NCBI RefSeq assembly: GCF_001718315.1
Contig: NZ_CP013362.1
Coordinates: forward strand, 682,001-746,000
DNA: 64,000 nucleotides
From: Burkholderia diffusa
Lineage (GTDB): Bacteria; Pseudomonadota; Gammaproteobacteria; Burkholderiales; Burkholderiaceae
Direction: 5' to 3'
Below, in pieces: positions 14,430 through 17,368 of this stretch. The notes beneath the pieces were generated by a model. The model made no database searches. It saw only the letters and a list, made by a program, of their open reading frames with translations, and was not told the origin of the DNA. The translations under genes and the position numbers were made by a program. The stretch's first letter is position 1, and every line of letters starts with the position of its first letter.

Positions 14430-15503
14430 TCAGTTGCCGCTGCCGCGCGCGACGCGCCGTGCCTTCACCGATTCCGCGAGGCCTTCGAGCACCTTCACGC
14501 TGTCGTCCCACGCGATGCACGCATCGGTGATGCTCTGGCCGTAGGTCAGCGGGCAGCCTTCCTTCAGGTCCTGACGCCCCTCGACGAGGTGCGACTCGAT
14601 CATCACGCCGACAATGCGCTCGTCGCCGGCCGCAACCTGGCGGCCGATGTCCGCGCACACGGGGATCTGGTTCTCGTGCTTCTTCGAGCTGTTCGCGTGG
14701 CTCGCGTCGATCATCAGGCGCGCGGCGAGGCCGGCCTTGCCGATGTCAGCGCAGGCGGCGTTCACGCTGTCCGCGTCGTAGTTCGGCGTCTTGCCGCCGC
14801 GCAGGATCACGTGGCAGTCCTCGTTGCCGGCCGTTGACACGATCGCCGAGTGACCACCCTTGGTCACCGACAGGAAATGGTGCGGCTGCGATGCGGCCTT
14901 GATCGCGTCGACCGCGATCTTCACGTTGCCGTCGGTGCCGTTCTTGAAGCCGACAGGGCACGACAGTCCCGACGCGAGCTCGCGGTGCACCTGCGACTCG
15001 GTCGTGCGCGCGCCGATCGCGCCCCACGAGATCAGATCGGCGATGTACTGCGGGCTGATCATGTCGAGGTACTCGGTCGCGGCCGGCAGCCCCATCTCGT
15101 TGATCTGCAGCAGCAGTTCGCGCGCGGTGCGCAGCCCTTCGTTGATCTTGAAGCTGTTGTCGAGGTGCGGATCGTTGATGAGCCCCTTCCAGCCGACCGT
15201 CGTGCGCGGCTTTTCGAAGTACACGCGCATCACGATTTCCAGCTCGCCCTTGAAGCGCTCGCGCTCCTTCACGAGCCGCCCCGCGTACTCGATCGCCGCC
15301 TTCGTATCGTGGATCGAGCACGGCCCGATCACGACGATCAGCCGGTCATCCATCCCGTGCAGGATGCGGTGCATCGACTGGCGCGAATTGTAGATCAGCT
15401 CGGACGCGGCCTCGGAGCATGCGAATTCGCGGATCAGGTGGGCGGGCGGCGTCAGTTCCTTGAGTTCGCGAATGCGGACGTCGTCGGTGTTGTGCGGGGG
15501 CAT
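14430..15503 (-). CDS. aroG: 3-deoxy-7-phosphoheptulonate (DAHP) synthase, class I
   Basis: This enzyme condenses phosphoenolpyruvate and erythrose-4-phosphate, the first step of the shikimate pathway to Phe, Tyr and Trp. Its 357 aa carry the class I features: IGPCSIHDTKAAIEYA with the metal/PEP-binding Cys, SQVHRELASGLSCPVGFKNGTDG, and a C-terminal DASHANSSKKHENQ metal site. AGGAG is seven bases before the ATG. Expression appears to be controlled by the attenuator upstream (leader peptide at 15696-15761, terminator at 15634-15666), which would sense aromatic amino acid supply. Which amino acid inhibits the enzyme allosterically cannot be read from sequence by eye; Phe- or Tyr-sensitive forms are both possible. 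Confidence 0.95.
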   Translation of the reverse strand: MPPHNTDDVRIRELKELTPPAHLIREFACSEAASELIYNSRQSMHRILHGMDDRLIVVIGPCSIHDTKAAIEYAGRLVKERERFKGELEIVMRVYFEKPRTTVGWKGLINDPHLDNSFKINEGLRTARELLLQINEMGLPAATEYLDMISPQYIADLISWGAIGARTTESQVHRELASGLSCPVGFKNGTDGNVKIAVDAIKAASQPHHFLSVTKGGHSAIVSTAGNEDCHVILRGGKTPNYDADSVNAACADIGKAGLAARLMIDASHANSSKKHENQIPVCADIGRQVAAGDERIVGVMIESHLVEGRQDLKEGCPLTYGQSITDACIAWDDSVKVLEGLAESVKARRVARGSGN

Positions 15504-15633
15504 GCTGTTTCTCCTAATTTTGCGGGCGCCGTTCGGTTAGTGCGCGTGCGGCAGATTCATCAATTCAAGCGATTCAGTGATTTCGGTCGGGGCCGCGGGA
15601 TCCGCTGGGGCGGCGACCGGGTGGCGAAGGGCG

Positions 15634-15666
15634 AAAAAAAACCGCCGGGTTCGCCGGCGGTTTTTT
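15634..15666 (-). terminator. Attenuator terminator in the aroG leader
   Basis: Read on the minus strand, CCGCCGG - CGAAC - CCGGCGG is followed by eight T. This is a strong intrinsic terminator located between the leader peptide and aroG. Its upstream arm, extended to CCGCCGGCG (15652-15660), is complementary over nine bases (one G-U) to CGCTGGCGG in the leader (15710-15718). That pairing would form an alternative antiterminator. Confidence 0.82.
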
Positions 15667-15695
15667 CGGGAATTTCGGTTGCGCTTTACGCGCCA

Positions 15696-15761
15696 TCAAC
15701 CCTCTCGATCCGCCAGCGGTCTGAGATGCCAAAAAAAGTAAAAATAAAACTTGGCGGACAT
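15696..15761 (-). CDS. aroG leader peptide, 21 aa, Phe/Tyr/Trp-rich
   Basis: A 21-codon ORF begins MSAKFYFYFFW, with seven aromatic codons in a row at positions 5-11, and ends LADREG-stop. Such runs are diagnostic of leader peptides that measure charged tRNA supply, as in pheA and trp attenuation. RNA segment 1 (TCCGCCA, codons 2-4, 15752-15758) can pair with segment 2 (TGGCGGA, 15709-15715). Segment 2 can instead pair with the upstream arm of the terminator. A ribosome stalled on the aromatic codons covers segment 1 and frees segment 2; one that reaches the stop codon covers segment 2. No clear Shine-Dalgarno is seen before the ATG, which is the weak point. Confidence 0.75.
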   Translation of the reverse strand: MSAKFYFYFFWHLRPLADREG

Positions 15762-15798
15762 GACGGAGATTTGGTTCGTCAAAAAAGTTGATTCGGAA

Positions 15799-15827
15799 TT
15801 TATACCCGGTCGCCGGCCCGCTGGCAA
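15799..15827 (-). promoter_or_regulatory. aroG: Sigma-70 promoter of the aroG leader
   Basis: On the minus strand TTGCCA (15822-15827) and TATAAA (15799-15804) are separated by exactly 17 bases. Transcription would start near 15792, about 30 bases before the leader peptide, and run through the attenuator into aroG. Confidence 0.72.
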
Positions 15828-15851
15828 CCGGGGGTGCTCGAAAATGCGGAC

Positions 15852-15883
15852 AATCCGCGCGTTTCTGTCAAAATGCGCGGATT
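15852..15883 (-). terminator. Hairpin after tldD, possible terminator
   Basis: The arms AATCCGCGC and GCGCGGATT form a perfect 9-bp stem with a 14-base loop, starting 19 bases past the tldD stop. There is no good T run on the minus strand, so it may be an RNA-stabilising hairpin or a weak terminator. Confidence 0.4.
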
Positions 15884-15901
15884 ATCTGCGCCGCGATGCG
15901 G

Positions 15902-17368
15902 TTATGCCGTACCGCCGACCGTCATCTTGTCGATCCGCAGGGTCGGCTGGCCGACGCCGACCGGCACGCTCTGACCTTCCTTGCCGCACACGCCGACGCC
16001 CGAGTCGAGCGACATGTCGTTGCCGATCATGCTCACGTACTTCAGCGATTCCGGGCCGCTGCCGATCAGCGTCGCGCCCTTCACCGGGTACGTGATCTTG
16101 CCGTTCTCGATCATGTATGCCTCGGACGCCGAGAACACGAACTTGCCGTTCGTGATGTCGACCTGGCCACCGCCGAAGTTCACCGCGTACAGGCCGTTCT
16201 TCACCGACGCGATGATCTCCTGCGGATCCTTGTCGCCGTTCAGCATGTACGTGTTGGTCATGCGCGGCATCGGCAGCGCCGCATACGACTCGCGCCGTGC
16301 GTTGCCGGTGACGGGCATCTTCATCAGGCGCGCGTTCAGCGTGTCCTGGATGTAGCCCTTCAGGATGCCGTCCTCGATCAGCGTCGTGCACTGCGTCGGG
16401 TTGCCTTCGTCGTCGATGTTCAGCGAGCCGCGGCGATTCGGCAGCGTGCCGTCGTCGACCACCGTCACGCCCTTCGCGGCGACCTGCTCGCCGATGCGGC
16501 CGGCGAACGCCGACGAGCCCTTGCGGTTGAAGTCGCCCTCGAGGCCATGGCCGATCGCCTCGTGCAGCAGCACGCCCGGCCAGCCCGGCCCGAGCACGAC
16601 CGTCATCGCGCCGGCCGGGGCCGGGCGCGCGTCGAGATTCACGAGTGCCGCGTGCACGGCATCGTCGACGTAGCGCGACAGCACTTCGTCGGTGAAGTAG
16701 CCGTAGTCGAAGCGACCGCCGCCGCCGCCGGAGCCGATCTCGCGGCGGCCGTTCTGTTCGGCGATCACCGTGACCGACACACGCACGAGCGGGCGGATGT
16801 CGGCCGCGAGCGCGCCGTCGCTGCGCGCGACCAGCACGACGTCGTATTCGCCGGCGAGGCCCGCCATCACCTGCGTGACGCGCGGGTCGCGCCCGCGCGC
16901 CATTTGCTCGATGCGCTCGAGCAACTTGACCTTGGCCGTTGCATCGAGCGACGCGAGCGGATCGGACGGCAGGTACAGGTCGCGGCCCGAGATGCCCTTC
17001 AGCGAAGTCGCGGCCTTGATCTTCTGGCGGCCACCGCCGGCCGCCGCGATCGCCTTGGTGGCCGCGGCCGCCTGGGCGATCGCCTCCGGCGACAGGTCGT
17101 CCGAGTACGCGAACGCGGTGCGGTCGCCCGCGACCGCGCGCACGCCGACGCCTTGATCGATGCTGAAGCTGCCCGACTTCACGATGCCTTCCTCGAGGCT
17201 CCACGCTTCGCTGCGGGTCGCCTGGAAGTACAGGTCCGCGTAGTCGACGCGATGCGTGAAGATGTCGGCGATCGTGCGCGTGAGCAGGCTCTCGTCGAGG
17301 CCGTACGGCGTGAGGAGGATGTCCTTCGCCAGCGCAAGATTGCGGATGCCGGGTTCGATGATGTTCAT
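15902..17368 (-). CDS. tldD: Metalloprotease subunit TldD
   Basis: TldD pairs with TldE/PmbA to form a zinc protease that trims unfolded or modified peptides (microcin B17, CcdA in E. coli). The 488-residue protein has the metal motif HEAIGHGLEGDFNRKG, with two His and a following Glu, near residue 260. It ends with the GVCGKEGQSVPVGVGQP segment containing the Cys that acts as a metal ligand in this family. The start is at MNIIEPGIRNLAL. It lies downstream of a nitrilase-type gene and yhdP on the same strand; the yhdP-tldD neighbourhood is also found in enterobacteria. Confidence 0.95.
   Translation of the reverse strand: MNIIEPGIRNLALAKDILLTPYGLDESLLTRTIADIFTHRVDYADLYFQATRSEAWSLEEGIVKSGSFSIDQGVGVRAVAGDRTAFAYSDDLSPEAIAQAAAATKAIAAAGGGRQKIKAATSLKGISGRDLYLPSDPLASLDATAKVKLLERIEQMARGRDPRVTQVMAGLAGEYDVVLVARSDGALAADIRPLVRVSVTVIAEQNGRREIGSGGGGGRFDYGYFTDEVLSRYVDDAVHAALVNLDARPAPAGAMTVVLGPGWPGVLLHEAIGHGLEGDFNRKGSSAFAGRIGEQVAAKGVTVVDDGTLPNRRGSLNIDDEGNPTQCTTLIEDGILKGYIQDTLNARLMKMPVTGNARRESYAALPMPRMTNTYMLNGDKDPQEIIASVKNGLYAVNFGGGQVDITNGKFVFSASEAYMIENGKITYPVKGATLIGSGPESLKYVSMIGNDMSLDSGVGVCGKEGQSVPVGVGQPTLRIDKMTVGGTA

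Follow-up and report, generated by a model that had tools for sequence, protein, structure and literature searches.

A candidate leader-peptide attenuator with Phe, Tyr, and Trp codons upstream of aroG in Burkholderia and other Proteobacteria

Introduction

Control of DAHP synthase by a leader peptide is already known in kind. In Corynebacterium glutamicum, the aroR leader peptide controls the DAHP-synthase gene aroF (Neshat et al. 2014, cited in PMC11802643). As this system is summarized in the citing source, a Phe-Tyr-Phe leader precedes the gene and stalling under Phe limitation raises expression, whereas Tyr supply has no effect and the summary reports no Trp codon (PMC11802643). The uORFC-13-1 motif, which precedes aroF in Acholeplasma, is a computational proposal based on 24 representatives from Acholeplasma and environmental sequences, in which a candidate uORF with at least one Phe codon and a ribosome-binding site is accompanied by a promoter and an intrinsic terminator (PMC8632094). 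For Escherichia coli, the system described is the repression of DAHP synthases by regulators that bind upstream of their genes (PMC11802643). In Sinorhizobium meliloti, the trpL leader ORF has been demonstrated to be leaderless, its transcript starting at the ATG (PMC7298713).

Ribosome-mediated attenuation through a Phe-rich leader and a terminator/antiterminator switch operates in E. coli at pheL-pheA and pheM-pheST, where the target is a terminal-branch enzyme or a tRNA synthetase. Both of these leaders read Phe only. A leader ORF, regulatory codons, and competing hairpins are common to the proteobacterial Trp, Phe, His, Thr, and branched-chain leaders, and proteobacterial attenuators are said to have been studied by Vitreschak and colleagues in 2004.

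We analysed a 64-kb stretch of Burkholderia diffusa DNA (hereafter the window) in which a comparable arrangement is found upstream of aroG. It has the leader ORF, the regulatory codons, and the competing hairpins of the proteobacterial leaders cited above but precedes another gene and carries other codons. Compared by their published descriptions, C. glutamicum aroR and Acholeplasma uORFC-13-1 resemble it in function, as both place Phe codons before a DAHP-synthase gene. Unlike it, the former belongs to an actinobacterium and the latter has a ribosome-binding site and a narrow taxon range. S. meliloti trpL (rnTrpL) shares the leaderless state that we predict for part of the family, but reads Trp only and controls trpE(G) (PMC7298713). 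The preliminary description of this locus presented DAHP synthase as a matter of repressors and feedback, which is right for E. coli but passes over the C. glutamicum and Acholeplasma leaders; the element is less novel in kind, though far more widespread, than that account held. What appears to be new is the family itself: how broadly it occurs in Proteobacteria, the combination of Phe and Tyr codons, often together with Trp codons, and a predicted start that is leaderless or lacks a Shine-Dalgarno motif.

Results and discussion

A leader ORF with a run of aromatic codons

The gene aroG (14430–15503), located like all the features described below on the minus strand, encodes a type I DAHP synthase of 357 aa (Pfam DAHP_synth_1 PF00793, E 3e-99) and is preceded by a Shine-Dalgarno motif (GGAG, 15514–15511). 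Between it and the upstream neighbour, which ends at 15902 and whose name, tldD, is that of the preliminary description, the sequence reads as a sigma-70-type promoter (15799–15827), composed of a −35 box TTGCCA (15827–15822), a 17-nt spacer, and a −10 box TATAAA (15804–15799), followed by a leader peptide ORF of 21 codons and a stop (MSAKFYFYFFWHLRPLADREG, 15696–15761) that is conserved in relatives. Codons 5–11 (15729–15749) specify seven consecutive aromatic residues, FYFYFFW. Promoter, ORF, and the pairing segments described below are present base for base at the coordinates first given, and matching promoters (TTGCCA/TTGTCA-17/18-TATAAA) precede the leaders of Paraburkholderia and Caballeronia.

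The possibility of a chance occurrence was judged on the window and on a search of the genome with a covariance model built from 45 leaders. Among the 615 ATG-started ORFs of 8–60 aa in the window, the leader alone contains at least six F/Y/W in nine codons, and FYFYFFW is the sole run of at least five aromatic codons in its six frames. In the 6.9-Mb genome, the single significant full-length match to the model is the window locus (120.7 bits, E 1.6e-27). Folding of the RNA also speaks against chance (z = −3.6).

Comparison of 16 distinct ORFs of Burkholderia and its near relatives shows aromatic codons that differ at their third positions (TTT/TTC, TAT/TAC) and a single amino acid replacement, F to L, so that changes are almost only synonymous. 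Codons 15–20, which comprise segment 2 of the pairings described below and what follows it, are almost frozen at all three positions. TTT is strongly preferred within the aromatic run, representing 77% of the Phe codons of the leaders (139/181) versus 20% of those of the aroG genes of the same loci (60/307; p = 2e-36); codons of related loci are non-independent in this statistic, although 44 of the 47 loci go in the same direction. This preference fits slow decoding, or the avoidance of structure within the run. Tyr codons lean to TAT, and the 47 leaders contain 177 F, 109 Y, and 26 W codons.

The leader of the symbiont Candidatus Burkholderia humilis (L012) has a frameshift in its TTT/TTC tract and has lost the Trp codon and the normal stop, with segment 2 and the terminator still there. 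It is probably a decaying attenuator, or else a sequencing error.

Competing hairpins and their covariation

Segment 2 (CGCUGGCGG, 15718–15710), located within the end of the ORF (PLADREG), can pair with segment 3 (CCGCCGGCG, 15660–15652) over 9 bp, including one G-U, to form an antiterminator. Alternatively, the first seven bases of segment 3 (15660–15654) pair with segment 4 (CCGGCGG, 15648–15642) in a terminator stem of seven GC pairs closed by a loop at 15653–15649 (CCGCCGG-CGAAC-CCGGCGG) and followed by a T8 tract (15641–15634). These two structures, already recognized in the preliminary description, which called for both to be examined in relatives, show compensatory changes there, with 20 double-changed cells for the terminator (0/500 shuffles) and 12 for the antiterminator (0/500 shuffles); 84% of antiterminator cells are paired, compared with at most 57% in slid controls. 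Within Burkholderia, a terminator A-U pair has become G-C and the antiterminator has been retained via a G-U pair. All loci of the first set that carry a leader have an intrinsic terminator, located 85–122 nt past its AUG. The segment-2 bases are read in other frames in Massilia (L023, PWRW) and Quisquiliibacterium (L028, CQRW), which indicates that the RNA, and not the end of the peptide, is under selection.

A third pairing involves segment 1 (UCCGCCA, 15758–15752), a possible protector strand found in Burkholderia and close relatives only, which is complementary to UGGCGGA (15715–15709). When compared with shuffled sequence, this 7-bp stem is better in Burkholderia, Paraburkholderia, Caballeronia, and Cupriavidus, is mostly unremarkable elsewhere, and lacks support across the whole alignment (30/500 shuffles). 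The segment 1:2 stem of the preliminary description is thus specific to Burkholderia and close relatives and not a general feature. A universal protector role was rejected outside Burkholderia and close relatives on this shuffle comparison. As read from the aligned sequences, the conserved core is segment 2 with the antiterminator and the terminator, and the leader alignment revealed no conservation of structure beyond segments 2–4.

In the minimum-energy fold, a strand of the 5'UTR (UCAACUUUUUUGA, 15791–15779) can also pair with the end of the ORF (UCGAGAGGGUUGA, 15708–15696). This tentative and unproven helix is a perfect 13–14 bp in most Burkholderia and shows CACC/GGUG for CAAC/GUUG in Paraburkholderia, a suggestive compensation. 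We do not claim it, as a comparison with shuffled 5'UTRs favoured the real sequence in no more than 8 of 69 leaders at 0.05, a result of the simple pyrimidine/purine tracts that make up the two strands.

A probable ribosome-mediated switch

From this set of elements, we propose that aroG is very probably controlled by classical ribosome-mediated transcription attenuation, responding to the supply of charged tRNA for Phe, Tyr, and probably Trp. Transcription would begin near 15792 and the leader ORF would be translated while emerging from the polymerase. With aromatic aminoacyl-tRNAs scarce, the ribosome would stall in codons 5–11 and leave segment 2 free to pair with segment 3, blocking the terminator and allowing RNA polymerase to continue into aroG. 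With these tRNAs plentiful, a ribosome located at the stop codon would mask segment 2, segment 3 would pair with segment 4, and transcription would stop at the T8 tract with an RNA of ~150 nt as its product. If the leader is not translated, the segment 1:2 pairing of Burkholderia and close relatives would favour termination.

The geometry observed across loci can be compared with this scheme. The GGCGG core starts 11–20 nt, mostly 14 nt, past the first base of the last aromatic codon, two atypical leaders having 12 and 24, the latter being the frameshifted L012. The leading edge of a ribosome lies ~11–12 nt from the A-site base, and the core would sit just past the expected edge of a ribosome stalled at the last aromatic codon.

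We also folded the RNA as it would be prior to the synthesis of segment 4, with the footprint of a ribosome imposed on it, a crude, equilibrium-based model in which the antiterminator of the window has a probability of 0.99–1.00 with a stall at any of codons 5–11 and of 0.00 with a ribosome at the stop codon. The model thus reproduces for the window RNA the logic advanced in the preliminary description, with a stalled ribosome freeing segment 2 and one at the stop covering it. Over 47 loci, the mean antiterminator probability is 0.71 for a mid-run stall versus 0.28 at the stop. Masking of segment 2 at the stop codon fails in about one third of the other loci under this simple model. In some genera, the stop codon is too far downstream to cover it (e.g., L009, L010, and L020), and for a few loci (L019, L060) the generic model itself fails. 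In equilibrium folding without a ribosome, the antiterminator is also preferred in the window, meaning that an untranslated leader would terminate only through kinetic trapping by an earlier pairing; the strong structure of the 5' region, which forms earlier in transcription, could trap segment 2.

Predicted translation start without a Shine-Dalgarno motif

Placing the transcription start from the −10 box at ~15792, the predicted 5'UTR of the leader (15762–15792) should be ~31 nt long and U-rich in Burkholderia. The preliminary description correctly pointed out that it lacks a Shine-Dalgarno motif and named this the weak point. The lack does count against the proposed attenuation, but it is a shared, conserved feature: 46 of 47 leaders have none before the AUG and a single one has a Shine-Dalgarno-like motif. 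Predicted leaderless transcripts would partly explain this. All 11 rows of the Bordetella/Xanthomonadales/Devosia clade have their best −10 box ending 6–9 nt ahead of the AUG, which predicts leaderless leader-peptide mRNAs, and several metagenome-assembled genomes have the same spacing, also without Shine-Dalgarno. Among the loci with the −10 box in this position are L020, L043, L045, L055, L061, L065, L068, L071, L075, and L079. The window differs from these leaderless-type loci, its −10 box lying 37 nt upstream of the AUG.

Alternative explanations

The discrete RNA of ~150 nt predicted as the terminated product recalls rnTrpL/peTrpL of Sinorhizobium (PMC7298713), and premature termination might primarily yield a stable small RNA or a trans-acting peptide, with the control of aroG as a secondary matter. 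We consider this very unlikely, given that from genus to genus the end of the peptide differs in sequence, and even in reading frame, whereas the RNA complementarity is maintained, and that the element is almost always located directly 5' of aroG; a small-RNA or peptide role would, moreover, be compatible with attenuation. Even less probable is that a metabolite-binding riboswitch or an RNA-binding protein acts on the terminator, the aromatic ORF being incidental. A terminator with an alternative pairing would suit any such sensor, and the leader has a stable minimum-energy fold, but the conserved element is the ORF, with its aromatic codons kept through synonymous change, rather than structure outside segments 2–4, and no Rfam family matches at gathering score.

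Ribosome-mediated attenuation also has to be weighed against a hairpin serving as a mere terminator or insulator between tldD and aroG, with the aroG promoter located downstream of it. The 130-nt spacer between the T tract and aroG (15504–15633) offers space for a promoter in the window. However, the gap is only ~27–60 nt in most related genera and these short gaps give no sign of a conserved promoter 3' of the terminator, which bears on the possibility, raised in the preliminary description, of a sole aroG promoter past 15634. The leader itself is preceded by a conserved promoter. A consensus promoter scan of 15450–15950 detected no promoter-like site, but it missed the leader promoter too, because it demands a T at the sixth −10 position. 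We give the insulator explanation hardly any credence.

Distribution and novelty of the leader family

With the covariance model, the element was detected in all 65 Burkholderia species and, at E ≤ 1e-6, in 158 of 200 genomes of the family, many of the negatives being small genomes. In the order, ~70 of 300 genomes yielded a full-length match at the same threshold, and by hand comparison and locus reading all but one of the checkable full-length matches lie directly 5' of a DAHP-synthase gene. The conservation of the aromatic run, for which the preliminary description had asked, extends over these 65 species and many genera.

We also surveyed aroG upstream regions for short ORFs with clustered F/Y/W codons, covering 80 AroG homologues of the genome collection plus 30 Burkholderia species, the taxon names resting on the 80 named loci. 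The leader was present in all surveyed entries of Burkholderia, Paraburkholderia, Caballeronia, Trinickia, Cupriavidus, and Oxalobacteraceae, and likewise of Bordetella, Xanthomonas, Stenotrophomonas, Dyella, and Devosia. The same survey found no convincing leader upstream of the AroG homologues of Rhodocyclaceae, Methylophilaceae, Chromobacteriaceae, Vibrionaceae, and enterobacteria. In 20 aroG upstream regions negative with the model, aromatic leaders (0/20) and GGCGG-type terminators (0/20) were absent and a few unrelated hairpins were seen, and the other DAHP-synthase gene in the genome that contains the window (G000 C2:2512647) has neither leader nor terminator in its upstream region.

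The distribution of the leader follows the AroG protein tree, its label requiring 8 changes there versus 26 when shuffled. With midpoint rooting, a single group of 48 rows, which includes the alphaproteobacterium Devosia, holds 44 of the 47 leaders. The AroG of Devosia and relatives (L045, L071, L079) groups with that of Xanthomonadales and a like leader is present, which suggests that the Devosia-type gene and its leader were transferred together.

Searches of 13 loci against Rfam 15, whose families include Trp, Phe, His, Leu, and Thr leaders, gave no match at gathering score, and the only hits in the window were sub-threshold and unrelated. In agreement with the preliminary description, which knew of no leader-peptide attenuator described for Burkholderia aroG, our literature search, which took in papers on the start sites and sRNAs of B. 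cenocepacia, yielded no such leader; Table S3 of PMC5688073 (82 short 5'UTRs) was outside its scope. The covariance model is supplied for annotating this leader, missing from Rfam 15.

If the proposed attenuation is true, it would explain in concrete terms how the enzyme that opens aromatic synthesis is controlled in a very large bacterial group, whose members include species from soil and plants as well as industrial strains and opportunistic pathogens. The leader joins Phe, Tyr, and Trp codons before the gene on which all three products depend, and the choice among these three signals, including which of them would matter most, becomes directly testable. The family is also a natural set for studying attenuator translation without Shine-Dalgarno. 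A broader proposition, to which we give about an even chance, is that the attenuator family is an ancient one, with no description in the literature and libraries searched, which reads the three aromatic amino acids via Shine-Dalgarno-free leaders (leaderless in Xanthomonadales, Bordetella, and Devosia). It would then be the principal means by which Burkholderiales control entry into the shikimate pathway at the level of transcription, and at least one family of this order would have it in front of a different gene, of unknown function, to which it has moved.

Weak covariance-model matches also occur elsewhere in genomes; those examined were mostly terminator-only (CCGCC..GGCGG hairpin) or full-length but without an aromatic ORF, and we rejected them. 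Three like leaders (MITFSAVFNAYFYWYRSS...; L176, L177, and L178, in genomes G153, G289, and G319, respectively) are not upstream of aroG, and the aroG upstream region examined from another genome of their family, G228, lacks a leader of this kind. Each of the three comes with an intrinsic terminator and precedes an uncharacterised gene of ~205 codons whose product has no Pfam match above the cut-off.
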